Notes under the pieces: generated by a model | Told to the model about the DNA's origin: nothing | The model's input: only the letters and a program-made list of their open reading frames with translations | The model's database searches: none | Origin: Halalkaliarchaeum sp. AArc-CO | GTDB taxonomy: Archaea > Halobacteriota > Halobacteria > Halobacteriales > Haloferacaceae | NCBI RefSeq assembly: GCF_024972735.1 | Contig: NZ_CP087723.1 | Coordinates: 992,001 to 1,056,000 of the forward strand | Length of the DNA: 64,000 nucleotides | Direction: 5' to 3' | Shown here: positions 1 through 30,507 of the stretch, one piece after another | How the letters are laid out: every line of letters starts with the position of its first letter | Numbering within the stretch: position 1 is the stretch's first letter | Translations under genes and position numbers: made by a program

Positions 1-1940
1 TCGAGGTCGTCGACGGCGACCGACTGCGGCGCTCTGTTCGCCCCTGGATCGAGACTCGAATGTTTCCGGTCGATCGTTACCGACTCGCTGTCGTACCGAA
101 TTCTCGTCTGCTCGGCACCGTCGGGGGTCGCACAGACGAGGAATCCGACCTCGGATGCATCGCCGACCTCGAGGGTCGCCTCGATCTCGATCGACCGGCC
201 TGCCGCGTCCAACCGGCGCGTCTCGTCGTCCAGGTCGACGCGACCCCGGCACAGCCGGCGCTCCCGAAGTTCGGAAAACTCACGAATCGGACGCTGGTGG
301 AGGCGATTCCTCTCTACGGACAGTTCCCGTGGAACCGACAGCGTTCCCGCCCAGCCGGCATCCCACTGACGGCTGATGCCTCTGGCTTCCGGGATCCAGC
401 CGAACGTAACCGTCCGATCGCCATCGTGCAGCGATTGGGGCGCGTAGAAGTCGCCTGGATCGAGCGTCCCGCGCCGGCTTTCGCGGAACTGACCGGCGTC
501 GGCGTCGAACTCTCCGAGGAAGTACAGTACCGTCTCGTAGTTGGAGACGTGGAGGAGGTGACTGTCGTCCAACTCGAGCAGTTCTGGACACTCCCACACC
601 GTTCCGGGCGTCTCCCAGTCCCCCACCAGCACGGGCCCCAGGTACTCCCAGTTCCGCAGGTCCGACGATTTATACAGGATGACGGTTCCGCCGACGTCCT
701 CCAGGCCTGCGCCGATCAGCTGATACCAGTACCCGTCGGCCTGCCAGATCGCGTGATCGCGGAACTCGGCGTGCCAGTGTTCTGTCGAGAGCAGATCCAG
801 TTCCGACGGTGGCTGTTCGATAACTGGGTTGTCGTCGTCAGGAACCCACGTGGAGAGCTCGCCGTCGGCTGCAGTCGCCAGACACGGGAGCTGCCACCGG
901 TCGCGCCCGCCCGTGTATACGATCCGGGCGGTTCCGTCGTCGTCGACCGCACATCCCGACCAGCAGCCGTCCCGGTCGGGTCCCGACGGGGTGGGGGACA
1001 GCGCCACAGATCTGTCCTCCCAGTGGAGGAGGTCGTCGCTCACCGCGTGTCCCCAGTGAATCGTATCGTGGTGGGGACCACCGGGATTGTACTGATAGAA
1101 GACGTGGTATCGATCGTTCCACCGAATACAGCCGTTCGGATCGTTGAGCCAGTTTGCGGGCGGGCAGACGTGGTAGTGTGGCCGGTGTGGATCGTCGTCC
1201 AGTTCGCGCCGATGGTCGAGGAGACCGGCCGCGTCGACGGGCCGACCGGCGGTCAGGTCGAACGTCGCGTCCCCGGCCAGGAACTGAAGTCCGTTCTTCA
1301 CGATCCGTTCGCGGCTCGCCTCCGTGTCCTCCGCGTCCGCGCCCGAAAACGCCATTCCCTGCCCGATTCCGACGACTGTCCCCTCGCCGACGCGCCACTG
1401 CAGGCCCCCAAGCTCACTCGGCACGTCCGTCTCGCCGCGGACGGTGCCGGCCAGCACGTCCGCCCGTTCGGGGAGGACGTTCTCGTATCGCGCGTACGGT
1501 GCGGGATCGCCGGCCGGCTGGGTGTGATGTCGAAGCCCGGTCAATCCCGCGAGGATCGGATGGTCCGCATACACTGACTTCCAGAGGACTCCCGTCGGTT
1601 CCTCTACTGGTTCCGTGCCCGTCGCGTCCGGCGGGACGGGGTCGATTCCGAGCGCTGAAACCTGTGCGACCGCACGGGAGGTCAAAAGGAGGCCGCCGCC
1701 GTCTTCCAGAAACGACTGGAACGCCGGGGCACAGTCTGCAATCTCTCGGGGGGTCGCGATCGGTTCGTTGGCGTGCCACCAGATCACGTCGAGTCCCGCG
1801 AGTCTGTCACCATCGGAAACGGCGTCGAGTTCTATCCGTTCCGTGTCGAATTCGGTTCGACACCACGTGAGAGCCGCCCGTTCCTCCGTGTCGAGTTCGC
1901 CGACAGCAAGGAAACCGACGGCCGCATCGGAGGTGTCCAT
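1..1940 (-). CDS. Glycoside hydrolase family 32 beta-fructosidase, 3' end cut by window edge
   Basis: The reading frame opens at an ATG at 1940 and is still open at base 1 (646 codons seen). Family GH32 hydrolyses beta-fructosides such as sucrose, levan or inulin. The motifs are clear: a nucleophile motif WLNDPNG (Asp267), FYQYNP, the transition-state motif FRDH (Asp395; canonically RDP) and the acid/base motif WECPELL (Glu450). The 128- and 55-residue spacings match the yeast invertase spacing of 128 and 53. About 240 residues precede the catalytic domain; they read like a glutamine-amidotransferase or ThuA-type fold, which is inference. No signal peptide is visible, so the enzyme is probably cytoplasmic. 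A PfkB kinase that could phosphorylate the released fructose lies 13 kb away. The long open frame on the other strand (60-1577) is its shadow. Confidence 0.9.
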   Translation of the reverse strand, partial: MDTSDAAVGFLAVGELDTEERAALTWCRTEFDTERIELDAVSDGDRLAGLDVIWWHANEPIATPREIADCAPAFQSFLEDGGGLLLTSRAVAQVSALGIDPVPPDATGTEPVEEPTGVLWKSVYADHPILAGLTGLRHHTQPAGDPAPYARYENVLPERADVLAGTVRGETDVPSELGGLQWRVGEGTVVGIGQGMAFSGADAEDTEASRERIVKNGLQFLAGDATFDLTAGRPVDAAGLLDHRRELDDDPHRPHYHVCPPANWLNDPNGCIRWNDRYHVFYQYNPGGPHHDTIHWGHAVSDDLLHWEDRSVALSPTPSGPDRDGCWSGCAVDDDGTARIVYTGGRDRWQLPCLATAADGELSTWVPDDDNPVIEQPPSELDLLSTEHWHAEFRDHAIWQADGYWYQLIGAGLEDVGGTVILYKSSDLRNWEYLGPVLVGDWETPGTVWECPELLELDDSHLLHVSNYETVLYFLGEFDADAGQFRESRRGTLDPGDFYAPQSLHDGDRTVTFGWIPEARGISRQWDAGWAGTLSVPRELSVERNRLHQRPIREFSELRERRLCRGRVDLDDETRRLDAAGRSIEIEATLEVGDASEVGFLVCATPDGAEQTRIRYDSESVTIDRKHSSLDPGANRAPQSVAVDDL

Positions 1941-2317
1941 CAGATCACGACAGGCACACCGGAGAGTTAAGTGATGCGGGAACAGATCGGCCTAGCGGTC
2001 TTCGGTCGGTTCATCGGAGCGGAGTCAGTCTGACGGTTCCTCTTCGGTTCGTCTGGCACAGAGCGTCACTGAATATATCCCGAGGCTGTTGCGAACTGGA
2101 TTGGAATGTCATAACACCACTTGTATTATGAAGGGCCATTATTGAAGGATTTTGAATATTTCTCACGGACGTACAACGTGGAAAAGGATCATATGGGAAA
2201 AAGAGGGCTCTACGCTCGTCTGGCGCCAATTCCAGAAAACTTGTAATATTTGATCGAAACATCCATATGTTAAGGCCAGGTCACCTTTACTTGATGCCAG
2301 AAGAGCACGAGGTACCC
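1941..2317. other. AT-rich intergenic segment between GH32 and lipoprotein genes
   Basis: This stretch separates divergent genes. Bases 2101-2160 hold only 19 G or C of 60, far below the neighbouring genes. It must contain both promoters; a TATA-like tgtaatattt lies near 2243. A short open frame on the minus strand (2011-2262) has no haloarchaeal codon bias and no recognisable motif, so I do not call it. No convincing insertion-sequence ends are seen. Confidence 0.5.
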
Positions 2318-3262
2318 ATGGAAGGAGAAAAATCGAGGGAACGTCCCGGTTTATCCGTCCGCCGCCGTGGCGTGCTGGCGGGGACGGCCGGTTTCGCGTC
2401 TGTCGCGCTCGCCGGCTGTGCCGGCGACGAGGAGCCGACGCCGGAACCGACCCCCGAGCCGACGCCGACCGAGGAACCGACGCCGGAGCCCGAGAACTAC
2501 GTCGTCACCGACGACATCATTGCCGGCTCCGCGTACATCCCGGAGGGGACTGGTGGATTCGCTCAGGCGTGTTCCCCCCAGCGGAATTTCATCCCGGAGA
2601 TGCAAGCGGTGTTCAAGATCGGCGTGTGGGACCCAGCGACGGGTGACATCGTCGGCGCCGACGTGATCGACGAGGCAACCGTCGCGATCGACGGCGGTCC
2701 GTCCGTCGAACTCGAGTTCGACGACGAGGACGCCGAGTGGTCGGGTAGTTGGCCGATCCCGGAGGATCAGGAGCCGGGCACGGTTTCCTATGAAGTGCAG
2801 GTCACCAACGAGGGCGAGTACCGCAACGTCGGCATCCTCGACAGCGAACTCGAAATCATCGAGTTCGACGACCCGAAGAACTACGTCGTCACCGACGACA
2901 TGTACGCCGGATCCTCGGGAATCCCGGACGACGCGCAGTTCGTCTCGGCGTGTGGCCCCTCGCGGGCGTTCGTTCCGGGCATGATGGCCGGCTTCGACAT
3001 CGGCGTTTACGACGGTTCCACCGGCGAACCCGTCGGACCGGACGTGATCGACGAGGCGACGCTCATCATCGACGACCGCGACATCGAACGGGACCTCGAG
3101 TGGGAGGAAGACGACGGCGAAGACCTCCACTGGAACGCCACCTGGCACATCCCGGATGACGCCGAGACTGGGACGGTCACCTACGAAGTCGAAATCACCA
3201 ACGAGGGCGAGTTCTACAACGTCGGCGTGCTGGAAAGCGAATTCGAGATCATCGAAGGGTAG
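2318..3262 (+). CDS. Tat-type lipoprotein with two copies of an unrecognised domain
   Basis: The N terminus carries a twin-arginine stretch (SVRRRGVLAG) followed by a lipobox LAGC with Cys34, so the protein is probably exported folded and lipid-anchored outside the membrane, as is usual in haloarchaea. I start at 2318 because that places the RR motif near residue 15; in-frame ATGs at 2267 and 2294 would give an over-long N region. A Pro/Thr/Glu linker (residues 36-59) precedes two copies of about 127 residues, beginning NYVVTDD at residues 60 and 188. Both share AC-x-P-x-R-x-F-x-P-x-M, an IGV(W/Y)D strand and DVIDEAT, and one conserved Cys each. I do not recognise the family. It converges on the Ig-like/CoxG operon, whose largest protein is also built from duplicated beta-domains. 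Confidence 0.85.
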   Translation: MEGEKSRERPGLSVRRRGVLAGTAGFASVALAGCAGDEEPTPEPTPEPTPTEEPTPEPENYVVTDDIIAGSAYIPEGTGGFAQACSPQRNFIPEMQAVFKIGVWDPATGDIVGADVIDEATVAIDGGPSVELEFDDEDAEWSGSWPIPEDQEPGTVSYEVQVTNEGEYRNVGILDSELEIIEFDDPKNYVVTDDMYAGSSGIPDDAQFVSACGPSRAFVPGMMAGFDIGVYDGSTGEPVGPDVIDEATLIIDDRDIERDLEWEEDDGEDLHWNATWHIPDDAETGTVTYEVEITNEGEFYNVGVLESEFEIIEG

Positions 3263-3340
3263 CTTCGAACTTCGCGCAACCGCCCTATAGATAATCTCTT
3301 ATTTGTCGTTCGGACCGACGATTCGACAGCCGACCGGCCG

Positions 3341-3919
3341 TCAGGTTTCTTTCGGTTCGACTTCGGACCTGATGTTTTCGAAGTACGTTTCCATGTCGGA
3401 TTTCACGATCGACCTGACCAGCCCGTCGGTGAGGCCGGCGACGCCGGCCACGCCACCCGTGAGGTCGATGTCGACCGTGTACGCCATGTCGACGACCCCG
3501 TCGTCCGTTTCGCTCATCTCCATGGCGGCGATCACGTCGAACTGGCTTCCGGTCGTCGAATCGTAGGCGTTGCCGTCGGCGACGATCCAGTCGGGCTCGT
3601 GCATCTCGACCAGCTCTGCCTCGCCAGATACCGAAAGCGTCAACCGACTTACCCCCCGGGTGATCTCGAAGGTGTAACGGCGCTGGGAGAGTTGTTCGAC
3701 GTCGTCTGCCCCTGGAACACAGTGGACGAGGTTTTCCGGTTCGGAGACGAACGTCCACAGATCGTCTTTCGACGCGTCGAACCGGACTGTTCCGTCGAAC
3801 GACAGTCCACCGTCGGACTGGCCCTCGTCCCCGCCGTCGTCGTCAGTTGCCGTCCCGTGTTCGGGTTGCTGTTCCTCGGCCGTGTCTGGTGTCCCGGATC
3901 CGTTCCTGGTGAAATTCAT
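3341..3919 (-). CDS. SRPBCC family protein, CoxG-like
   Basis: This 192-residue protein has a low-complexity acidic N-terminal tail of about 45 residues. The rest is a START/SRPBCC (CoxG-like, PF06240-type) fold, visible as FDGTVRF, a helix with DDLWTFVSEP, then CVPGADD and a long C-terminal helix. CoxG proteins help maturation or membrane recruitment of aerobic CO dehydrogenase, but no CO dehydrogenase subunit is in the window, so the partner here is unknown. I choose the ATG at 3919 because it overlaps the stop of the upstream gene as ATGA, indicating translational coupling; the longer frame to 4048 starts with residues that only shadow that gene. Confidence 0.8.
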   Translation of the reverse strand: MNFTRNGSGTPDTAEEQQPEHGTATDDDGGDEGQSDGGLSFDGTVRFDASKDDLWTFVSEPENLVHCVPGADDVEQLSQRRYTFEITRGVSRLTLSVSGEAELVEMHEPDWIVADGNAYDSTTGSQFDVIAAMEMSETDDGVVDMAYTVDIDLTGGVAGVAGLTDGLVRSIVKSDMETYFENIRSEVEPKET

Positions 3920-4200
3920 GGTGGCTCCGCGTGTGGGTTCGGTCGCTCCGCCCGGTCTGGCTGTTCGTTCGACCGTCCGTCGATTCGGTCGCGTCCCGGT
4001 TCCGGCCGTCTGTGAGGCGCCTGCCGCTTTCGGTGATCCCGTCGCCACGTCTGAGCGAACCTGTGGAACGTTTCCTCCCCGGAGTACTTCTCTGCGTCGT
4101 GATCTACGACGTACTCGTCCATCTCGACCAGCAGGTCGTCGGGTTCGGGCCCGAGCTGTCGGACGAACCCCGCGTTGTGTTCCGGGAGGATTTCGTTCAT
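3916..4200 (-). CDS. Small protein of unknown function in CoxG-like operon
   Basis: This encodes 94 residues, an acidic first half (contains LLVEMDEYVVDHDAEKY) and a basic, Pro/Arg-rich second half. I recognise no domain. The support is positional: it starts 25 bases after the Ig-like gene ends, and its stop overlaps the start of the CoxG-like gene by four bases (ATGA). The N-terminal 55 residues look like real protein by composition. The C-terminal tail could be an out-of-frame extension after a frameshift, so the true gene may be shorter or damaged. Confidence 0.55.
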   Translation of the reverse strand: MNEILPEHNAGFVRQLGPEPDDLLVEMDEYVVDHDAEKYSGEETFHRFAQTWRRDHRKRQAPHRRPEPGRDRIDGRSNEQPDRAERPNPHAEPP

Positions 4201-4225
4201 AGGGTCTCGCGGCGCGTGGCGCAGC

Positions 4226-5662
4226 TTACTCCGTGATCTTGAACGCGAAGTGCGCCGCCGGGAGGGGACGGATCGGATGGTTGTCCAGATACGAGAGGTG
4301 CGGCTTCAGCTCGAAGTCCGGTTCGTCCTCCTGCACCTGGAAGAAGCTCGGGTAGACGTCGATAAAGTGCCACCCCGGCTCGCCGGCCGCCTGCAGGACA
4401 GTCCGGTTCACCGCGGCTTCCAGCCCGCAGATGTATCCGAGGGGCTTGTTGTCGTACACGAAGTAGTAGGCGTTCCCGTAGGTGGGCCAGCCCACACCGG
4501 AGATCTCGATCTCGATCTCCGTGCCTGCGGGACCCTCCGTCGGAGAGAACGTCTCGATCCGCGGCTGCATCATAAAGCCCGTCTTCGCCACTGATTTCCC
4601 GTCGATCTCGGCGGTGATCGGTCGGGTGGCGCCGATGTCGGTCGGGATCTCGACTTCGACCTGGAACGCGCCGTCCTCGTCGGTCGTCACCGACGGCAGC
4701 GCGTCCGGCATCGGCACGGGCGTGATGTCGATCCCCTTCACGCGGTGTCCCTCGTGGCTGTGCCAGATCAGGTCCACCTCGGTGTCTGCGGGGAAGTTCC
4801 GTCCGGTGATGAACGCGTCCGTCCCGGGCTGACCGGAGGTCGGCGAGATCTCCAGCTCCGCGTCGGTCTCCTCGTCGATATCGGGCAGGTGCACGCTGAG
4901 TGGCCCCTCGTCCCACATCGGGTCGAGCCACGCCGACTCCGGCTCGGATTCGGGCTCGGTGACCTCCACGGTCCAGGAGGACTTGCGCCCCCCTGCGACT
5001 GGACCGAACGGCGACTGGGTGTTGTTCTGGAGGAACGGCACCCCGCGATAGTTGCGCCACACCTGCAGGACGTGCTTTCCGGGCGGCCCAACGGCCCGCA
5101 CTTCGGCGGTCGCGGTTCCGCGGTTCTGCACGCCGGTCATGATCCCGACCATTCCGTTGTCCCAGGCGATCTGGTAGTTGTTCGTGATCACGTTCGGGCC
5201 GAGTCCGTAGCCGGTCACGGTGAAGAATTCACCCATCTCGGCCTCGGTCCGATCGATTTCGAACCACGGGAGGATCTTGAGCTTCGTCTCCGCCAGAGTG
5301 GTCTCGTCGTCGCCGGCCGGTCGTAGTTCGATCCGGTGTTCCCCGCCGTAGTCCTCCGGAATCTGCCACTCCTCGGTGAACCGCCCGTTCTCGTCGCTCG
5401 TGATCGACGTCAACTGCTCTTTCCGGGGCTGGTACTGTGCACCCACGACTTCGTTTGCCTTGAGTACGCCCCACATTCCCTCCGCGGTGTGCCAGATCAC
5501 GTCGACGTCGGCATTCTCCGGGAGGTTTCGTCCTTCCAGCGTAACGGTGTCCCCGACGTACGCCTCCGCGTCGCTCACTACCAGCGTTCCGCGGTGCTCG
5601 GACCGCCCTTCCCTGTGTTTGTCGATCCGTTCTCGAACTTCCGGAGATATCCCGTCGTCCAT
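4226..5662 (-). CDS. Tandem Ig/IPT-like beta-sandwich protein, internally duplicated
   Basis: This 478-residue protein consists of Ig/IPT-like beta-domains. Two stretches are clearly duplicates: GRNLPENADVDVIWHTAEG (residues 44-62) and GRNFPADTEVDLIWHSHEG (287-305), each introduced by a V-G-D-T-V-T or P-G-T-D-A-F type strand and followed by a second module ending in a Trp- or Tyr-rich strand with a D-N turn. It therefore reads as two pairs of domains. No signal peptide or transmembrane helix is visible, unusual for this fold in archaea, so it is either cytoplasmic or uses a non-standard export route. It is first gene of an operon with a small protein and a CoxG-like protein. The substrate or partner is unknown. 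Confidence 0.8.
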   Translation of the reverse strand: MDDGISPEVRERIDKHREGRSEHRGTLVVSDAEAYVGDTVTLEGRNLPENADVDVIWHTAEGMWGVLKANEVVGAQYQPRKEQLTSITSDENGRFTEEWQIPEDYGGEHRIELRPAGDDETTLAETKLKILPWFEIDRTEAEMGEFFTVTGYGLGPNVITNNYQIAWDNGMVGIMTGVQNRGTATAEVRAVGPPGKHVLQVWRNYRGVPFLQNNTQSPFGPVAGGRKSSWTVEVTEPESEPESAWLDPMWDEGPLSVHLPDIDEETDAELEISPTSGQPGTDAFITGRNFPADTEVDLIWHSHEGHRVKGIDITPVPMPDALPSVTTDEDGAFQVEVEIPTDIGATRPITAEIDGKSVAKTGFMMQPRIETFSPTEGPAGTEIEIEISGVGWPTYGNAYYFVYDNKPLGYICGLEAAVNRTVLQAAGEPGWHFIDVYPSFFQVQEDEPDFELKPHLSYLDNHPIRPLPAAHFAFKITE

Positions 5663-5885
5663 AGTTTTAGTTTACAGATTATCTGTTATATGGTTTTCCA
5701 TAGGTGGCTGCAGCAGGTGATTCGGGTGACTGTTCTGGCACTGAAATTTAAGTCAATTGAAAACACAGTCCACCGTACGGACGCGGGGTGTGCGATGGTC
5801 GAACTGGGGGTCCGGTACCGAACAAACTGGGGGACCGGTTCCGAACAGGTCGGCGTCGTCGACCGTCTCGCCCGTAGATCGTTCC

Positions 5886-6359
5886 ATGGCTTCACGTTCG
5901 CAGCTCGGAGGAGCAAACGACGCTGCCGCGCCAGTCGTGGGTATCGTTCTGCTCGTCGCGCTCGTGGTCGCACTCGCGACGCTCGTGGGTTTCTCTGTGC
6001 TGGGATTGGGGGGCATCGTCGACAGTAGCCCCAGTACAACCTGGAGCGGGGCGGTCGTCGAACCGTCCCCCGAATCTGGCGACGTGTTCCTGGAGTTTAC
6101 ACATCGGGGTGGCGACACAGTGGCGGCCGACAATCTTGACGCAGTGATCCTTTCGGGAGACGGCAACGCCTCGCTGGGTGCCGTCACATCCGAATCGGAC
6201 CGGTTGTCTGCGGGGGACACGGTGGGGATCGAGATCGAGGGGGAACCGGAAAGCGAGTTGTCTCGGGACACCGAGATCGCCCTCGTGTGGGAAATCGAGG
6301 ATCGATCGGCTATTCTGGCGGAGATGACGCTCGAAGAAGCTGTCGTGATCGAAGAGTAG
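5886..6359 (+). CDS. Archaeal type IV pilin-like protein
   Basis: This 157-residue protein begins with a short polar leader followed by a hydrophobic helix (PVVGIVLLVALVVALATLVG), the signature of the archaeal pilin N-terminal domain (PF07790 type). The leader would be cut by prepilin peptidase and the helix packs into a pilus or anchors the protein. The remainder is an acidic beta-rich head. I start at 5886, since the longer frame from 5757 adds residues with no such logic. It stands alone, divergent from the Ig-like operon across a 223-base AT-rich gap, and ends one base before the convergent PTPS-like gene. Confidence 0.85.
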   Translation: MASRSQLGGANDAAAPVVGIVLLVALVVALATLVGFSVLGLGGIVDSSPSTTWSGAVVEPSPESGDVFLEFTHRGGDTVAADNLDAVILSGDGNASLGAVTSESDRLSAGDTVGIEIEGEPESELSRDTEIALVWEIEDRSAILAEMTLEEAVVIEE

Positions 6360-6360
6360 T

Positions 6361-6738
6361 TCAAAGCGCCGTTTCGTAGCCGGCTGCGGCTTCTTCGTCT
6401 TCCCACATCACGACCCGAACCCTGTCGGCTGCGGCCGGGTCGACGTGGTCCAGGAGGGTTTCACAGGCAATTCGTGAAAAGTGCTCGACGCTTGGATTGC
6501 GCCCCTCGAAGGCGGGTTTATCGTTGAGCGTCTCGTCCGCGTATCGTTCCCGGACGGCGTCGATCCCGGCTTTTACGTCGTCGATGTCGACCAGATAGCC
6601 GTATTCGCCGAGCTGGTCGCCCTCGAACGTCGCCTCCATCTCGAACTGATGGGAGTGCAGTTTCCCTTCGGGACCCGGATCCGGCACCGTCAGATAGTGC
6701 TGGGCGATGAACGACTCTGTCACCGTAACTGAATACAT
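6361..6738 (-). CDS. 6-pyruvoyl-tetrahydropterin synthase / 6-carboxytetrahydropterin synthase-like protein
   Basis: This 125-residue protein has the PTPS (QueD) fold. The three zinc-binding histidines are visible as His14 in QHYLTV and His28 and His30 in KLHSHQFEME. The family acts on dihydroneopterin triphosphate. The segment between His14 and His28, where QueD and classical PTPS enzymes keep their catalytic Cys, has none, so this protein may not catalyse the standard reaction. A conserved Glu lies in NPSVEHFS. It follows an MDR dehydrogenase and GTP cyclohydrolase III on the same strand (97-base gap), which points to a shared pterin or pyrimidine-type pathway. Confidence 0.85.
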   Translation of the reverse strand: MYSVTVTESFIAQHYLTVPDPGPEGKLHSHQFEMEATFEGDQLGEYGYLVDIDDVKAGIDAVRERYADETLNDKPAFEGRNPSVEHFSRIACETLLDHVDPAAADRVRVVMWEDEEAAAGYETAL

Positions 6739-6835
6739 ACTCGCGGATACGAATTCTTCGGTAAAGAGTCTGCTCCACAGTTCGTGTTCGACGTCTCCGG
6801 ACCGTCGTGTTCGCTTTCCCGTCGATCAGTGCCGC

Positions 6836-7840
6836 TCAGTATTCGAACAGCGTAGTGACGACGCCATCCGATTTGTCTGCCAGTCGCTCGTAAGCGATCT
6901 CGGCGTTCGATAGCGGCTCCCGATGGGTGATGAGCGGCTCCGTGTCGAAGTCTTCGAGCAGTTCCCATGCAGTCGAAAGCCGCCGATCGGCGTCCCACCT
7001 GCCGCGCAGGGCCGGATCGACGGTGCTCACCTGGCTACTCTCGATGGTAATTCGGTTCCGATGGAACTCGGCTCCGAGATCCAGCGTGGCCTCCTTGGTT
7101 CCGTACCACGATCCGACGACGATCCGGCCGTCGTAGCCGGCCGTGTGGATCGCATCGTCGAGGGCCTCCGGGTTGCCCGAGACCTCGAACGCTAGGTCGG
7201 TTCCGGCGCCCTCTGACTCGGAATCGTACTGCTCCTCCAGCGCAGCGGGGGCGATCGCCCTGTCGACCCCGAGACGACGGGCGAGTTTGCGGCGCGTTTC
7301 CACGGGGTCGATTGCGACGAGCTGATCCAGCGGGAACCTGGTGAGAAGTTCAGTTGTGAGCAGCCCGACTGTCCCCTGCCCGAATACGGCGACGCGTTCT
7401 CCCAGCCGCGGCCCCCCATCGTGGACGAAGTTAATGGCCGTCTCGACGAGTGGCAACAGCGTGGCTGACTGGCTCTCGATCCCATCGGGTACCGGAACCA
7501 CCTCCTCGGGAGAGGCGAGGAAGTGGCTCTCGTGGGGATTGAACGCGAACACGCGTTGTCCGGCCCACTCTTCGGGAACGTCCTGGCCGACTTCGTCGAC
7601 GACGCCGACGGCCGCGTAGCCGTATCGCAGCGGGTAGGTAAATCGCCCGGAAAACGCCGGCAGGCTCTCGTCTATCGGCAGTCGTTCGGGTGCTTCACCC
7701 CGATAGATCAGCAGTTCGGTTCCGCTACTGATCGCGGAGACGGTCGTTTCGACCCGGAGCTGGTTCCGACCCGGGGTGGGACGTTCCGCGCGCTCGAGTT
7801 CGACCTCCCCCGGAGCCACGAAGGAGAGCCGGCGGCGCAT
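6836..7840 (-). CDS. MDR-superfamily dehydrogenase lacking usual zinc ligands
   Basis: This 334-residue medium-chain dehydrogenase/reductase has a GroES-like N half (SSGTELLIYRG) and a Rossmann half with the nucleotide motif GQGTVGLL. Its architecture resembles BchC-type and threonine-dehydrogenase-like proteins, but the Cys/His pattern for catalytic and structural zinc is absent. The start codon overlaps the GTP cyclohydrolase III stop (TGATG at 7842-7838), so the two are translationally coupled, and the PTPS-like gene follows. The coupling suggests it reduces or oxidises a pterin or pyrimidine-derived intermediate; the substrate is unknown. Confidence 0.85.
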   Translation of the reverse strand: MRRRLSFVAPGEVELERAERPTPGRNQLRVETTVSAISSGTELLIYRGEAPERLPIDESLPAFSGRFTYPLRYGYAAVGVVDEVGQDVPEEWAGQRVFAFNPHESHFLASPEEVVPVPDGIESQSATLLPLVETAINFVHDGGPRLGERVAVFGQGTVGLLTTELLTRFPLDQLVAIDPVETRRKLARRLGVDRAIAPAALEEQYDSESEGAGTDLAFEVSGNPEALDDAIHTAGYDGRIVVGSWYGTKEATLDLGAEFHRNRITIESSQVSTVDPALRGRWDADRRLSTAWELLEDFDTEPLITHREPLSNAEIAYERLADKSDGVVTTLFEY

Positions 7841-8616
7841 CAGTCGCCGGCAGCCGCGTGTTCTGTCGCGAACTCGACAGTCGTTCCCTCGTATCGACAG
7901 TCCTCGAGTGCGTGTTTCGCCGCGAACCCGGCCTTGTGCGGCGATTCACCGGTCCCTACGCCGACTTTCAACTGAACGTCCACGGCGTCGGCCACGTGAT
8001 CGATCGCGTCCTGGTATTCGTCGACACTCAGCTCTGGGCAGACCGCGATGATGTTGTCGCCGCCGACGAAGAACGACAGCGCGCCGTGCGCCTCCCGCAT
8101 GTATCGCATCAGCTCTGCGTAGCCGTGTTCGATGTGGATGAACGAATCGAACTCGTTGAGGCGGTCGGTGTACTTTTCGGTCGCGTCGTTCACGTCGAAA
8201 TGAGCGATCTGGAGATCGTCGCCTGCGGTGGGTTCCCGGAACGACCCCGAAAAGACCTCCTTGCGATCGCTGTCCTGGGCACTACCGGCGCGCTGGAGTC
8301 GTTCTGTCGCGTTTTCGAGCGCTTCGGAGGGTTGCGAGTCGACATCCACGCCGAGACTCACCGTCACTGGATAGCGGTTTCGGATCGACTCCTGTAGCGT
8401 GTGGTGGTCCGTTCGGTCGATCCCGTTGGTGACCGCAACCATGTTGTCGAACCGGGTGAAGAAAACGTAGCCGTCGCGGCTGCCGATGAACTGCGCGAGG
8501 TCGGCGAACAGTCGCGACTGCAGGGTCTGGAGATCCATCTCCCGTCGCGGCTCCGGCGACACCGTCCAAGGGCCGTAGTTGTCGATCTGAACCAGCGTAA
8601 TCTGTGTGTTCGTCAC
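7840..8616 (-). CDS. arfA: GTP cyclohydrolase III (archaeal, FAPy-forming)
   Basis: This 258-residue protein matches archaeal GTP cyclohydrolase III, which opens the guanine ring of GTP and keeps the formyl group, giving 2-amino-5-formylamino-6-ribosylaminopyrimidinone 5'-phosphate for riboflavin and F420 synthesis. It has the two nucleotidyl-cyclase-like halves of that family: the N half begins QITLVQIDNYGPWT and holds GYVFFTRFDNM; the C half holds SFFVGGDNIIAVCPE. The start is a GTG at 8616, giving the usual family length. It is coupled to the downstream MDR dehydrogenase. A creatininase-family protein of the ArfB type, the next enzyme of this route, is at 24241-25026. Confidence 0.9.
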   Translation of the reverse strand: MTNTQITLVQIDNYGPWTVSPEPRREMDLQTLQSRLFADLAQFIGSRDGYVFFTRFDNMVAVTNGIDRTDHHTLQESIRNRYPVTVSLGVDVDSQPSEALENATERLQRAGSAQDSDRKEVFSGSFREPTAGDDLQIAHFDVNDATEKYTDRLNEFDSFIHIEHGYAELMRYMREAHGALSFFVGGDNIIAVCPELSVDEYQDAIDHVADAVDVQLKVGVGTGESPHKAGFAAKHALEDCRYEGTTVEFATEHAAAGD

Positions 8617-25549: not shown

Positions 25550-26299
25550 GTGTTCCTGCTCGTCCACGACGACAGGGAGTACCTCCGCGCCCCCGGCGAG
25601 GAGCTTCAGACCGATCTCGGCGTGTTGACGGTCCCCGAGGACGTCGAGTCGGGCGACGCCCTCGAGACCCATCTCGGAACGACCTTCCACGTCAGAGAGC
25701 TCCGCGGCCCGGATCTGTTCGACCACCTGGATCGGACGGGAGCGCCGATGATGCCTCGGGACATCGGTCTCCTGATCGGCCACACCGGTGCTGCGGCGGG
25801 CGATCGGGTGCTCGACGCCGGCACTGGAACGGGGATTCTGGCGGCGTATCTCGGGCGGATCGGTGCCGAGGTGACGACCTACGAGCGTGACCCGGAGTTC
25901 GCACAGCAGGCGCGGGAGAACATGGACGTCGCCGGCGTCACCGACTGCGTCGACGTTCGGACCGGCGACCTGACCGACGAACTCGACGAACTGATCGTGA
26001 CGGTCGACGCCGGCGACCGGGAGCGGTTCGACCTGCTCACGCTCGACACCGCGGACGCGGCGGCGATCGTCGGACGGGCGCCCGAGCTACTCGTTCCCGG
26101 CGGCTTCCTCGCGGTCTACTCGCCGTTCGTCGAACACACTCGCGAGGTGGTCGAAGCGGCCCGCGAGGCGGAGCTTTCGGAGATCGAGACGTTCGAGACG
26201 ATCCAGCGTCGGATGCAGTTCGACGATCGGGGATCGCGTCCGAACACAGCCGGCGTCGGTCACACCGGATATCTAACGTTCGCTCGCCGCCTTTTTTGA
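25550..26299 (+). CDS. trmI: tRNA (adenine-N1)-methyltransferase TrmI
   Basis: This 249-residue methyltransferase has an N-terminal beta-domain and a Rossmann domain with VLDAGTGTGILAAYLG. The PMMPRDIGLLIGHTG stretch before the SAM motif is typical of TrmI/Trm61, which makes m1A at positions 57/58 of archaeal tRNA. The start is a GTG at 25550, six bases after the NAC stop. Confidence 0.92.
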   Translation: MFLLVHDDREYLRAPGEELQTDLGVLTVPEDVESGDALETHLGTTFHVRELRGPDLFDHLDRTGAPMMPRDIGLLIGHTGAAAGDRVLDAGTGTGILAAYLGRIGAEVTTYERDPEFAQQARENMDVAGVTDCVDVRTGDLTDELDELIVTVDAGDRERFDLLTLDTADAAAIVGRAPELLVPGGFLAVYSPFVEHTREVVEAAREAELSEIETFETIQRRMQFDDRGSRPNTAGVGHTGYLTFARRLF

Positions 26300-26352
26300 G
26301 ATCGTCCGGTTCGGGCGGCCGCTCGACGGCGGTCGGATCTCGCCGCCGGAAG

Positions 26353-27612
26353 CTACCGTTCGAGAATCCGCAACGCCGCTCCTCCCAGTAACCGGAGGGG
26401 TCGAACGAGGTAGTAGATCGGATGGAAGGGACCGGAGAGCGGGAGCAACCGATACTCCGGGAGACTGGGATGGAGCGGCCCGGATCGGATCAACGACCCG
26501 AACGTCTCGACGGGAGAGTCACTTGCTTTCGCGTTGTATCGGATCCGCTCGAACCCTCCGGGTCGGGTCGTTCGCCCCCGAGCCAGATCCGACACGATTT
26601 CTTCGATCAGCCTCCGGGATCGGCCATCCGCCCGGAGCCGTCGGTCGACGGACACGGGGAGGTCGATGTCCCACAGTGCATTCGCGAGCCCGGCTCCGAG
26701 GAGAAATTTTCGCTCGAGTCGGTGCGTTTGCGCCCGCTGTAACAGCTCATCCCACGGGGCGGGCGTCCGCACGACTGTCCACGCGAAGTCGGCGATCCAC
26801 TTCAGCAGGTGCCAGCGGTGTTTCGTGCCGTGAAACGCCAGAACCAGCAGCCGATCGATCGGATCCAGTGTGGGGAGTTCAGTTCCCGAGAGGTGGATCG
26901 TGTCCCGACGGCTCCAGAGCGCTTCGAAATCCAGTGGAAACGGACGATCCATGTCGCCGACGTGCCACCGGATTTCCACGGTAGTTTCCTCTCGCTGGAG
27001 CTGGTACTCGTTGACGATCGGCATCGTGAACCTCCCTCCGAGGAGAGCGACATCGCCTTTTCGCGGGAGCGATCCCTCCCAGGAGTACCCTCTCTCTTCG
27101 AGGAGGTCGATGGCTCGAGTGACGTCTTCCCTGTGAACGACGACATCGAGATCACCGTACTCGCGAAGTGACACATCGCCATACGTAAACGCCGCCAACA
27201 CCGGCCCCTTGAACGGAAGCGCCCGGAGTCCTTCCTCCTCGAACCCGATGAGGATCTGTCGGAGTTCGTCCGTGTCTCGGAGGGTTCGAATGGCGTTCGA
27301 ACGAACCCGGTTTCGCAGTTTTTCTTCGACGCTCTCGGGAACCTCGATGCCTCCCAGGCTGCTGTCGGCGGACTGTCTGAGTCGCCGGTGCACGAGCGGT
27401 GCGACCCCGTGATCCGTTGTGAGGGCCAGGAACCGGCCCCAGTCCAGTTCCGACGGGGGCTGTAACCGCGGCGGTCCGGGACCGTCTTCTGTCGGCTCTT
27501 TCGGCGGCCGTGTACAGTGGACGAGCAGTTCGACAGCAGGCAACACGTCCGGCCCACGATCTGACGAGCTTTCATCGCGCGTGTCGAGTCTCGGAAGTGC
27601 CGTCCCCGTCAC
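26353..27612 (-). CDS. Nucleotidyltransferase-family protein of a lasso-type RiPP cluster
   Basis: This 419-residue protein matches the uncharacterised nucleotidyltransferase family (PF14907 type): GVAPLVHRRLRQ, then FKGPVLAAFTYGD and the catalytic acidic pair in REYGDLDVVV. Such proteins recur in lasso-peptide clusters with HPr-kinase-like proteins. The reaction is unproven; transfer of a nucleotide or phosphate to a peptide is one idea. The start codon overlaps the stop of the kinase-like gene by four bases (ATGA), so it is last in a coupled operon. A C-terminal Arg/Leu-rich amphipathic stretch could bind membrane. Confidence 0.85.
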   Translation of the reverse strand: MTGTALPRLDTRDESSSDRGPDVLPAVELLVHCTRPPKEPTEDGPGPPRLQPPSELDWGRFLALTTDHGVAPLVHRRLRQSADSSLGGIEVPESVEEKLRNRVRSNAIRTLRDTDELRQILIGFEEEGLRALPFKGPVLAAFTYGDVSLREYGDLDVVVHREDVTRAIDLLEERGYSWEGSLPRKGDVALLGGRFTMPIVNEYQLQREETTVEIRWHVGDMDRPFPLDFEALWSRRDTIHLSGTELPTLDPIDRLLVLAFHGTKHRWHLLKWIADFAWTVVRTPAPWDELLQRAQTHRLERKFLLGAGLANALWDIDLPVSVDRRLRADGRSRRLIEEIVSDLARGRTTRPGGFERIRYNAKASDSPVETFGSLIRSGPLHPSLPEYRLLPLSGPFHPIYYLVRPLRLLGGAALRILER

Positions 27613-28535
27613 GGACGCTCACCGAGATTTCGTTCCCCCCGGACGCCGAGGTCATTTTCCACGAGGGCTATCACGTCCGAAAACACGTCCAGCCGTCGTC
27701 GACGCCGGAGCCGTTTGACCGGAACTGATTTTGCGAGCGAAACCGCTCGCGTGAAGTTTTCACGGGCGTAGTCGCTCTCCTGGTGGAGGCTGACCGTGTA
27801 CGTGTTCTCGATCAGTTCCAGTACCTGTTCGCTTGCAGGGGCCGGGGCGATCTCTTCGCGTTGGGCGTCCTCGAGGAGGTAAATACGCCGGAGCGGTACC
27901 GCCTCGACCGGCTGTTTGTGGCAAAGCCCGTAGAAGTGTCGATCCCGGGACTCACAGATGTTCTCTGGCGGATCGACCGAAAGACCGAATCGCTCGACCG
28001 TGGCCGGTTCCAGCTTTATGGAGGGGAACCCGCTATGGACCGTCGGCTCGTCCACCCGTTCGATCGCTGCCACGTCGTCGCTGAGGACCCGATGTCCGGC
28101 CGCCAGAAACGCGGTGGCGGTGGTCGTCTTCCCCTGTCCGGAGGTTCCAGCGAAGACGACAGCACCGTCACCGATCTCGACTGCACTGGCGTGCAAGACG
28201 AAGAACCCCCGCTGGTGCAACAGGTGGTTGAACGCCGGTCCCACTACGACGTGACGAACGATCTCTCCGTGGACATGGTCCAGCGAATCCACGACGATCT
28301 CGCGACCATCCCGTATCAGTACACTCGCGACCTCGTAGGTGAGGCGGTAGTCCCCCTCTGGAGTCACGGACACCGCACCGTTTTCTCCACCGTTGTTCTG
28401 CACACTTCCGCGCCGTACGACCACGTCCGGGTCGTCGTGGTCCGATCCGTCACCAGGGGCTAGCTCCGGAAGCGGGATCTCCGATACGACGGAGAGTCCG
28501 AACGCCTCGTAGCTGTTCGTCCGACGGAGAGTCAT
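27609..28535 (-). CDS. HPr-kinase/lasso-kinase-like P-loop protein
   Basis: This 308-residue protein carries a Walker A motif GTSGQGKT (residues 130-137), an upstream LHASAVEI strand and a downstream LSDDVAAI with paired Asp, the arrangement seen in HPr kinase and in lasso-peptide tailoring kinases such as that of paeninodin clusters. Those enzymes phosphorylate a Ser on the peptide, but the predicted core here has no Ser or Thr, so a different acceptor is likely. It overlaps both neighbours by ATGA, the small upstream ORF and the nucleotidyltransferase. Confidence 0.88.
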   Translation of the reverse strand: MTLRRTNSYEAFGLSVVSEIPLPELAPGDGSDHDDPDVVVRRGSVQNNGGENGAVSVTPEGDYRLTYEVASVLIRDGREIVVDSLDHVHGEIVRHVVVGPAFNHLLHQRGFFVLHASAVEIGDGAVVFAGTSGQGKTTTATAFLAAGHRVLSDDVAAIERVDEPTVHSGFPSIKLEPATVERFGLSVDPPENICESRDRHFYGLCHKQPVEAVPLRRIYLLEDAQREEIAPAPASEQVLELIENTYTVSLHQESDYARENFTRAVSLAKSVPVKRLRRRRRLDVFSDVIALVENDLGVRGERNLGERP

Positions 28536-28801
28536 GCTCTCGTCCCGGGATCGAGGAGCGTCCGAGTCGACACGTCCGCTACGGTGATGGACAGCCCCGT
28601 AACTGCCGCCGTGATCTGGCGCCCTGTACTGCCGTCGACGTTCATATCTTCAGCCTGGAGACTGGGACCCATTAGTATGGAGTCGCTATCAGGGAGGGAC
28701 GATAGCGCCAGCGGCGGATTTCGCTCGGGAGTCGCGCATCCAGCCGAGCTCGACCCTGCTGAAGCAGGGGTCGGCCGGTACTGTGCGTGCTCGTTCGACA
28801 C
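28532..28801 (-). CDS. Small unknown ORF coupled to lasso-kinase-like gene
   Basis: From a GTG at 28801 this frame gives 89 residues; shorter starts are ATG at 28672 (46 residues) and ATG at 28645 (37 residues). I recognise no domain; the C-terminal part reads QITAAVTGLSITVADVST. The support is that its stop overlaps the kinase-like start by four bases (ATGA), just as the kinase-like gene overlaps the next. It sits where lasso clusters often hold the cyclase gene, so it could be a remnant 3' end or a new small component. A 6-bp hairpin with TGAA loop at 28754-28769 lies inside its first third, which favours a downstream start. Confidence 0.4.
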   Translation of the reverse strand: MSNEHAQYRPTPASAGSSSAGCATPERNPPLALSSLPDSDSILMGPSLQAEDMNVDGSTGRQITAAVTGLSITVADVSTRTLLDPGTRA

Positions 28802-28850
28802 GCGCTCCAGAAATGACTTCGGCCGAGTCAGTCCGTCCGCCCGTTATCGT

Positions 28851-28946
28851 GGCTGTCGTAGCCCGTTACCGGATGGACAAGCCGCCGACGATCCAACGGA
28901 GGATCCCGCCGACGAGCCCGCCGACCGACAACTCGCTACGACAGCC
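28851..28946. repeat. 12-bp inverted repeat enclosing 72 bases
   Basis: The left arm is ggctgtcgtagc (28851-28862) and the right arm is its exact reverse complement (28935-28946). The enclosed bases include a minus-strand micro-frame (28931-28866, TTG start) for a 21-residue Gly-rich hydrophobic peptide with three GG pairs. The repeat lies just downstream of the precursor stop at 28958, so in RNA it could form a long-loop hairpin. Confidence 0.6.
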
Positions 28947-28957
28947 TGTTCGAGTCG

Positions 28958-29050
28958 CTAATATTCTTCGTCGTGGCCGTAATGTTCGTCTTGCGTCAGT
29001 TCTTCGACTTTCCCGTGGGTTTCGACTTTCGGCGGTTGGTAGTCTTTCAT
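28958..29050 (-). CDS. Lasso-type RiPP precursor peptide (30 residues)
   Basis: An ATG at 29050 opens a 30-codon frame ending in TAG. The first 20 residues follow the leader rule for lasso precursors, Y-x-x-P then Gly then L-T: YQPPKVETHGKVEELT. A leader Thr at position -2 predicts cleavage after Gln20, leaving the ten-residue core DEHYGHDEEY. The core has acidic side chains at 7-9, where lasso rings close, but is too short for ring plus tail, has no Ser/Thr and starts with Asp. Genes for the leader-binding protein and leader peptidase lie just upstream. A TATA-like box at 29090-29097 and a hairpin (gggtgtggcaccc, 29051-29063) precede the ATG. Confidence 0.75.
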   Translation of the reverse strand: MKDYQPPKVETHGKVEELTQDEHYGHDEEY

Positions 29051-29097
29051 GGGTGTGGCACCCGGCTATTTTTTGTTCAGTGCCGGTATTGTTATAA
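29051..29097 (-). promoter_or_regulatory. Promoter and 5' hairpin of precursor peptide gene
   Basis: On the minus strand a TATA-like GTTATAAC (29097-29090) sits about 40 bases before the precursor ATG, so transcription would begin near 29067. The last 13 bases before the ATG form a perfect 5-bp hairpin (GGGTG, loop CCA, CACCC), which could affect translation initiation. Confidence 0.5.
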
Positions 29098-29234
29098 CTC
29101 GCTTAGCGAACGTTTCACGCGATACTCGTCGATTGTGGTCGCGATAATTCGGCGTGTACGTCGTTAATCGCCGGTTATCGGGGACCCAATTCGATCCTTC
29201 CGGGACTGCCGTCTCGTCTGTCGGGGTACCCGGA

Positions 29235-29675
29235 TCAAAACAGGGACTGGAACCGTCGATCTGCATCCCTCTCCGTCAGAATCCGGTACTCAGCGAGGTC
29301 GTCGAGCTCACCGATCAGGACGGAACCGTCCCGTTCGATCCACGCGTGAGCGTGGAATTCGCCGTGTTTTCTGGTTACGCCGAGTTTGAGTTCTGCCCGG
29401 TGGCCGTTCGCCTCGAGCAGCGCTTTTCCGACGATCGCTTTCATCAGACACGTCGGCGAGAACGGTGCCCGGCGGTGTACGGCCTCCACAGCAGCCGCGA
29501 TCGCGCCGGGGGCGACCTGCCGGAAAGGAGGGGCCCTGGCTGCGACGGGCTCGACGATCCGACGTGTCGCGTCCCATCGGAGAACCGGAAGCAGTAGCCT
29601 CGTCGAGGACAAAAGCACCGCTGCTGTCGCTATCAGCGTCCTCGATGGCCGATCTGTCTCACTTTGAATATTCAT
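29235..29675 (-). CDS. Lasso peptide B2-type leader peptidase (transglutaminase-like)
   Basis: This is a transglutaminase-like cysteine protease of the lasso B2 family, which removes the leader from precursor peptides. From the ATG at 29675 it has 146 residues: an N-terminal hydrophobic stretch, Cys76 in SPTCLMKAI, His110 in FHAHAWIE and an acidic residue in GELDDLAEYRIL, giving the Cys-His-Asp triad. The frame is open to 29711, but 29675 leaves a 17-base overlap with the PqqD-like gene upstream, a credible coupling. Length and order (B1 then B2) match split lasso systems. Confidence 0.9.
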   Translation of the reverse strand: MNIQSETDRPSRTLIATAAVLLSSTRLLLPVLRWDATRRIVEPVAARAPPFRQVAPGAIAAAVEAVHRRAPFSPTCLMKAIVGKALLEANGHRAELKLGVTRKHGEFHAHAWIERDGSVLIGELDDLAEYRILTERDADRRFQSLF

Positions 29676-29955
29676 CCACTGTTTCGAGAAGACCCGTGTC
29701 GCCCAGTTCACGGAGGAACTGGAGGACGTCCTCTTCGCAGCGCTCGGGCTCGACGTCGTAGGTTTCCGCGACCGATCGTTGTATCTCGCGTACTCTCGTC
29801 GGCTCTTGAATCGACTCCCAGATCTCCGGTCCGGTCCCTGTGAGGCTCTGGTAGCTTCCCTCCTCCTCGTTGTACACCACCACTTCGTCGTCGAGAGTCG
29901 TGGCGAGCGAACTGTCGTTTGCGACCACGAGGGAGTCGGGAGTGAGATTCGTCAT
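29659..29955 (-). CDS. PqqD-like RiPP recognition element (lasso B1 type)
   Basis: This 98-residue protein has the PqqD fold: DDEVVVYNEEEGSYQSLTGT, then EIWESIQEP and a winged helix ending in LGDTGLLE. Such proteins bind the leader peptide, contacting its Tyr-x-x-Pro motif, and hand it to the B2 peptidase. It is first gene of the minus-strand pair B1-B2 and overlaps B2. The leader of the downstream precursor-like peptide has the motif expected for this partner. Confidence 0.9.
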   Translation of the reverse strand: MTNLTPDSLVVANDSSLATTLDDEVVVYNEEEGSYQSLTGTGPEIWESIQEPTRVREIQRSVAETYDVEPERCEEDVLQFLRELGDTGLLETVDEYSK

Positions 29956-30030
29956 GGCGATATAAACGAATAGAGGTCCGATAGTTATCCGGTGGTTACC
30001 GAGCGTCCGTTCCCCTGCAGACCGAGTCGA

Positions 30031-30507
30031 TCATTCGGTCACGTCCACGACCGTCGCCGCAGCACGCGAGCGCAGCGTCTCCGGATCGATCGGGAACACG
30101 GCTTCCGGCGTCCCCGCGGCGGCGTACACCGTATCGAACTCTGCCAGGGCCGGATCGAACAGGACGGGCACCTCCGTGTCGTGGCAGATCGGTGGGACGC
30201 CCCCGATCGACCAGCCGATCTCGTCGGCGACGCGGCCGGGATCGGCCATCGTCGTTCTTTCGGATGAGGCGTCGAAGCGGTCGGCGACGGCTGCGAGATC
30301 GACCCGGTTGGCACCGCTTGTGATCGCGACTACCAGGTCGCCGTCGGCGTCGACGACGATGCTGCTCGCGATCTGAGCGACGTCACACTCGAGTGCTTCG
30401 GCGGCGTCGGCTGCCGTTTTGGTTCCTTCCGGGAACTCCAGTACGTCGATATCGAGTCCGTATTTCTCCTTCGCCCGGTCGACGAACGCCTCGACACGTG
30501 AATGCAT
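30031..30507 (-). CDS. YbaK/EbsC-family aminoacyl-tRNA deacylase
   Basis: This 158-residue protein belongs to the YbaK/ProX family, which hydrolyses mischarged tRNAs such as Cys- or Ala-tRNA-Pro. The pattern ECDVAQIASSIVV, a central SGANRVD and the conserved SIGGVPPICHD loop are visible. I start at the ATG at 30507, giving the family N terminus HSRVEAFV. It stands alone upstream of the lasso-type cluster, without evident functional link. Confidence 0.9.
   Translation of the reverse strand: MHSRVEAFVDRAKEKYGLDIDVLEFPEGTKTAADAAEALECDVAQIASSIVVDADGDLVVAITSGANRVDLAAVADRFDASSERTTMADPGRVADEIGWSIGGVPPICHDTEVPVLFDPALAEFDTVYAAAGTPEAVFPIDPETLRSRAAATVVDVTE

Follow-up and report, generated by a model that had tools for sequence, protein, structure and literature searches.

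A lasso-like peptide operon without a cyclase in Halalkaliarchaeum, and the short linear modified peptide that it probably makes

What does a lasso-peptide gene set make when its cyclase gene is absent? A 64,000-nucleotide stretch of the haloarchaeon Halalkaliarchaeum sp. AArc-CO (contig NZ_CP087723.1, positions 992,001 to 1,056,000; hereafter the window) raises this question. A sequence-only reading found genes for a lasso-type leader-binding protein, leader peptidase, kinase, and nucleotidyltransferase there, and offered three options: maturation by leader removal with phosphorylation or nucleotidylation alone, as a new type of ribosomally synthesized and post-translationally modified peptide (RiPP); a cyclase encoded elsewhere; or a cyclase lost. 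The first is the best supported. At a probability of roughly 0.68, the locus is an operon derived from the lasso pathway, without a cyclase, whose product is a short, linear, modified RiPP. The gene order on the minus strand is B1, B2, precursor, K, and N:

29659..29955, minus strand: B1, a PqqD-type RiPP recognition element (RRE) of 98 residues (PF05402, TIGR04353, match to solved lasso RREs)
29235..29675, minus strand: B2, a lasso-type cysteine leader peptidase of 146 residues from ATG (NF033537; CL and HAW motifs conserved)
29088..29097, minus strand: TATA-box-like TTATAACAAT, some 40 nt before the start of the precursor; a like element occurs in Haloarcula
28958..29050, minus strand: precursor gene, 30 residues, with leader 29050..28991 and predicted core 28990..28961 (leader motif, homologous open reading frames)
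28851..28946, minus strand: long stem-loop directly 3' of the precursor, arms 28946..28935 and 28862..28851 (RNA fold)
27609..28535, minus strand: K, an HPrK-like peptide kinase of 308 residues (PF07475 sub-threshold, TIGR04352, 1jb1, His-Lys-Asp-Asp)
26353..27612, minus strand: N, a PF14907 nucleotidyltransferase-fold protein of 419 residues from GTG (PF14907, DLD motif)
26289..30034, no strand: stretch absent from G360, a genome of the same genus (blastn of the flanks)

B1 and B2 are the lasso-like components. B1 is alone in the 3.18-Mb genome in matching PqqD. It scores 64.5 bits against PF05402 and passes TIGR04353 (37.2 bits; cut-off 35), yet its match to the lasso PqqD model NF033536 (E = 8e-18) lies under that model's cut-off. 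By sequence it matches the solved lasso RREs PbaB1 (9x90; 7.5e-10) and TbiB1 (5v1u; 1.4e-9), with 42.5 and 41.6 bits; LppB (9x8z; 3.8e-4, 24.3 bits) is more distant. B1 keeps an Asp and a Phe at the positions aligned with D70 and F74, the LppB residues in contact with the tyrosine and proline of the leader. B2 reaches 77.7 bits against NF033537 lasso_biosyn_B2 (cut-off 33) and 75 bits against PF13471. The catalytic Cys76 and His110 named earlier are correct if translation starts at ATG 29675 (146 residues; GTG 29711 would give 158), and the acid lies within a GELDD stretch.

K retains an intact catalytic His-Lys-Asp-Asp set (H115, K136, D153, and D154) and matches the solved kinase HPrK (1jb1) at 1.7e-4. 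N scores 194.6 bits against PF14907 and carries a DLD motif at residues 154-156. Its predicted structure (predicted local distance difference test, pLDDT, 78) matches the folds of MenT1, LnuA, ANT(2''), and FKRP, so that either nucleotidyl or phospho-sugar transfer may be possible. The N gene overlaps K by GTGA; the ATGA coupling described earlier for the last genes exists, but between the kinase gene and an 89-residue open reading frame upstream of it. By model names, the comparison extends to the NCBIfam 'HPr-rel-A system' (TIGR04352/TIGR04353), of which B1 passes TIGR04353 and K scores 39 against the TIGR04352 cut-off of 200.

What, then, do these enzymes act on? A precursor-like peptide had been mentioned without coordinates, rightly as to its presence, but the true 30-residue frame in the B2-K gap, MKDYQPPKVETHGKVEELTQDEHYGHDEEY, had been missed. 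It divides into a leader, MKDYQPPKVETHGKVEELTQ, and a predicted 10-residue core, DEHYGHDEEY. The peptide fits the lasso leader motif Y-x-x-P-x-V-x3-G-x5-T, with the threonine as penultimate leader residue. This motif occurs in 1 of the window's 292 short ATG frames and in none of 28,383 from 60 shuffled windows; the match is not a chance event. No other copy of the precursor was found in its own genome. The 89-residue frame (28801..28532; ATG version 28645..28532) was rejected as precursor: no family model matches it, and the related loci hold no counterpart. A 66-residue frame (29266..29066) likewise matches no family. Cut after Thr-Gln, the core (28961-28990) would begin D-E-H, a predicted N-terminal X-X-His metal-binding motif, which is also predicted in the contig L137 (DHH) and in Haloarcula salina (WWH).

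Homologous short frames are present in related loci. Haloarcula genomes carry MKEYETPSVETYGTVEEKTNWWDHDDGYGKWS in the equivalent B2-K gap, and WWDHDDGYGKWS may be the counterpart of DEHYGHDEEY. In an alignment of 10 Haloarcula copies, 8 of the 32 codons are variable and only the last alters its residue (S to D), whereas the DNA on either side has diverged; this pattern indicates that the Haloarcula precursor is under purifying selection. A TATA-like box (for example CTATAACAAA) stands at the same distance of about 40 nt in 10 Haloarcula loci, a feature shared with the window. The hairpin 3' of the window precursor (-64.7 kcal/mol; z = -4.8) is possibly an attenuator or a transcript-stabilizing element.

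Is a cyclase encoded somewhere else? As reported earlier, there is none in 26.3-30.6 kb; the rest of the window holds none either. Asn_synthase-domain (PF00733) proteins do occur at four places in the genome, all outside the window, and two of them are AsnB-like proteins of 622 residues. As candidate cyclases these fail: one reaches 77.7 bits with NF033535, the model for lasso cyclases (cut-off 525), which is the best score in the genome, and the other gives no match. A further Asn_synthase-domain protein is LarE. For comparison, the same model gives 651 and 581 bits to two cyclases that belong to haloarchaeal lasso clusters. A haloarchaeal cyclase profile gives the AsnB-like pair 84 and 19, compared with about 520-1,110 for real cyclases, and haloarchaea that possess a cyclase mostly have it within the cluster. 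Given also the 10-residue core, a true lasso peptide tied by a distant cyclase is very improbable. By per-stretch scores, none of 11 further genomes reaches the NF033535 cut-off; seven of these are haloarchaea with cyclase-less loci.

Has the cyclase instead been lost from a decaying cluster? The distribution of the operon bears on this point. NF033537 scores above its cut-off in 31 of 392 Halobacteria sampled, and many B2-positive loci hold a cyclase in the same stretch. In the profile search of genome contigs, B2 alone gave nothing and an alignment of N found relatives. The B1-B2-precursor-K-N set without an adjacent lasso cyclase is present in 11 Haloarcula genomes. The set recurs, partly rearranged or truncated and with no lasso cyclase in the stretch, in other haloarchaea (G036, G472, and two G322 loci). 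The metagenome-assembled contig L137 has all five genes and no cyclase in 8.3 kb; on a short contig, G476 keeps precursor, K, and N. The stretch from G391 also lacks a lasso cyclase.

In the kinase tree, the window locus groups with 16 other loci without a cyclase in a single clade (96/88; 98/98 for its 15 core members, for which the N tree gives 100/99). Since no locus of this clade has a lasso cyclase next to its genes, a loss of the cyclase, if there was one, must be ancestral. G391 falls outside, on a long branch. B2 has an HAW motif in 17 of 17 cyclase-less loci with B2, and HSW in 21 of 21 other loci.

The predicted cores differ as sharply. Cyclase-less loci have cores of 8-17 residues (n = 17), against 22-32 residues (n = 28) in loci labelled cyclase-bearing, without overlap (p = 2e-8). 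Every cyclase-associated core contains Ser or Thr, compared with 9 of 17 cyclase-less cores (p = 1e-4). The loci are related, and so both p values indicate direction only. Tyr is present in 16 of the 17 cyclase-less cores. The cut was set after Thr-x, or in G036 after Ser-x; the three precursors of G391, one with a core that is longer by eye, are not in the count.

These features make a decayed, no longer functional lasso cluster quite improbable: the enzymes are all intact, the kinase clade is wholly without an adjacent cyclase, the Haloarcula precursor is under purifying selection, and the cores are systematically short. Its support comes from the patchy presence of the operon, from its absence in G360, and from G472. 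G472 is the closest complete relative, and its precursor and kinase genes have between them a gene for an asparagine synthetase, read from the opposite strand. As an ancestral lasso cyclase it is a poor candidate: it begins MCGIAG (Cys-type), finds its best match in asn_synth_AEB, is weak against NF033535, and is split in two frames. It is more likely unrelated to the cluster. With that caveat, related strains show no adjacent cyclase of the kind that would have marked the locus as a decayed lasso cluster.

How does the locus compare with known systems? The closest precedent is a bacterial one. In the linear polyphosphorylated peptides (LPP) of the Bacillota, the precursor receives several phosphates on Ser3, and LppS, an enzyme resembling signal peptidases, cleaves it (Popov et al. 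2026, PMC13381572). The LPP and haloarchaeal loci share a discrete RRE, an HprK-like kinase, a nucleoside triphosphate (NTP) transferase, a YxxPxV leader, an expected linear product, and the lack of a cyclase; the ABC (ATP-binding cassette) transporter of LPP loci also has counterparts in the G036 and G472 clusters. There are also differences. The loci described here are archaeal; they use a lasso B2 instead of the signal peptidase I (SpI)-like LppS; and their cores, of 8-17 residues, often lack Ser and Thr. The window core has 10 residues and no Ser, as opposed to 45 residues with a phosphorylated Ser3. Its leader has YxxPxV, without the HQxIxFET extension of the LPP motif YxxPxVLxHQxIxFETxxS. 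No SipW/SpI-like leader peptidase is present in the island (26289..30034), the rest of the genome not having been searched for SpI homologues. B1, moreover, scores higher against lasso RREs than against LppB. Genuine membership of the LPP family is thus improbable.

Among lassos, the phosphorylated or glycosylated peptides paeninodin and pseudomycoidin come from loci with B1, B2, an HPrK-like kinase, a nucleotidyltransferase-type enzyme, a [Y/W]xxP leader, and a Thr before the cut site. The window locus differs from them in having no cyclase gene, a core too short to thread, and no C-terminal Ser acceptor. Haloarchaeal lasso clusters (G345, G104, G062, and G309) have homologous B1, B2, K, N, and leader motif. 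However, they possess their own cyclases (520-1,110 bits), B2 proteins with HSW, and cores of 22-32 residues, many with GS near the C-terminus. Thus the locus has the RRE, B2, and YxxP leader with penultimate Thr of a lasso cluster, but neither an NF033535 cyclase nor a core long enough for a 7-9-residue ring and threaded tail; it has the LPP combination of RRE, HprK-like kinase, and NTP transferase without cyclase, but neither the SipW/SpI-like peptidase (within the island) nor the full leader motif. Because two defining features of each family fail, the locus is placed in neither. The best reading is of a B2-dependent, cyclase-less, short-core archaeal relative of both pathways.

This suggests a pathway, of which we infer the binding, the order of steps, the cleavage site, and the modification. 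The 30-residue precursor would be expressed from its own promoter, presumably at the TATA-like box. B1 would then bind the YxxPxV leader, for which both the motif and the pocket residues are in place. K may phosphorylate the leader-held core, and since this core has neither Ser nor Thr, tyrosine would be the likeliest acceptor. N, of a kind found in lasso clusters and including PsmN, might extend the phosphorylated residue with a nucleotidyl, a sugar, or a phospho-sugar group. Finally, B2 would cut after Thr-Gln to free the modified DEHYGHDEEY. To our knowledge, a 10-residue core is shorter than that of any known threaded lasso; with the cyclase also absent, no macrolactam would form.

The model for N comes from pseudomycoidin: PsmK phosphorylates the peptide, and PsmN is required for the presence of hexoses on the phosphorylated Ser (review PMC9266682). 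Could K and N instead act on some other substrate, such as a cell-surface glycan, with the peptide being cleaved only? The window core and 8 of the 17 cyclase-less cores offer no Ser or Thr, and FKRP is among the folds that N resembles. Nevertheless, K and N adjoin each other and the precursor throughout the clade, and their homologues PsmK and PsmN modify a peptide. A separate substrate is therefore unlikely, less so than the other alternatives.

Several further points weigh against the proposed linear modified peptide. K matches its families under both the Pfam (29.2 bits; PF07475 cut-off 33.3) and NCBIfam (39.2 bits; TIGR04352 cut-off 200) thresholds. The HPrK-like peptide kinases known so far modify Ser, and an LPP precursor with the S3Y exchange was not phosphorylated (PMC13381572). 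Deletion of lppN in the LPP host changed nothing (PMC13381572), which makes the role proposed for N tentative. The cleavage site is placed by analogy, and the product is a predicted one. The core sets derive from motif search, gap reading, and choices among open reading frames, so a few precursors may be missing. The frameshifted asparagine synthetase of G472 is the sole observation that could hint at a former ligase.

What holds of the sequence-only reading is the locus itself; of its options, maturation without cyclization is the best supported. Its 'new RiPP type' was too strong, because LPP were described in 2026: the cyclase-less idea is already published for Bacillota (PMC13381572), and what is added here is the true precursor and a conserved archaeal family. 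A search of the open-access literature found no description of an archaeal lasso-like RiPP without a cyclase. Dropping the cyclase while keeping leader, peptidase, kinase, and transferase is, as these loci show, an evolutionarily stable archaeal design, separate from the Bacillota route. If the acceptor is tyrosine, an HPrK-type peptide kinase would here have an unusual specificity. More tentatively, and with the odds against it, these loci might define an archaeal RiPP class of their own, in which a lasso B2 would release linear peptides of 8-17 residues that an HPrK-type kinase and a PF14907 enzyme modify on tyrosine rather than serine; in the window strain, L137, and Haloarcula salina, a copper- or nickel-binding X-X-His N-terminus is also predicted. 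Short cores, and an operon present in several named Haloarcula species, make the products and the role of PF14907 directly testable.

The operon occupies an island. Where the window has 3.7 kb, G360 has about 340 bp, with flanks that are 83-85% identical by blastn up to 26288 and from 30035. This comparison covers one other genome of the genus and is compatible with both acquisition in the window strain and loss in G360. The nearest relatives of K and N in the trees come from organisms of another family, which fits transfer of the island. No island gene other than B1, B2 (PF13471), K, and N has a known family. There is no transporter gene in the island, so that export, if any, would be by another transporter.

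Bacterial relatives of N were considered as parallels. The majority either lack B2 or have an evident cyclase; L139, L150, and L163 have B2, K, and N without a cyclase in the stretch analysed. L150 and L163 are not clean parallels, because strong but partial cyclase matches, of 415 and 486 bits, occur in their genomes. L139 (the cyanobacterium Cylindrospermum sp. FACHB-282; 1761-8152) encodes B2, K, N, an ABC-transporter-like frame, and two GGSGGF-core precursors whose leaders are almost identical; its genome has no lasso cyclase above the cut-off.

Other loci show further variation. In G322, one cyclase-less B1/B2/K/N locus (L053, 13726-17429, minus strand) has six tandem precursor paralogues with a MTYEKPTLETYGRVESLTQ-like leader and cores of 8-12 residues, five with an SEP motif. 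The G391 locus (L068, 9733-11178, plus strand) has three precursors between B2 and K and no cyclase in 19 kb. Its cores contain or end in GY or GYG (for example RGGG...GPIGYGQ), its K and N lie on long branches, and it is possibly an independent cyclase-less lineage. In G080 (L120, 8287-9423, plus strand), a lone HPrK-like kinase gene directly follows one for a precursor of 66 residues, which has a YxxP leader and a core rich in Asp and Trp; a span of 18 kb showed no B1, B2, or cyclase. Finally, four haloarchaeal lasso clusters (L055, L061, L058, and L113) have two cyclases and several precursors, and a GxHFSxVDGNSGTTGN core family is shared by L055, L061, and L114.

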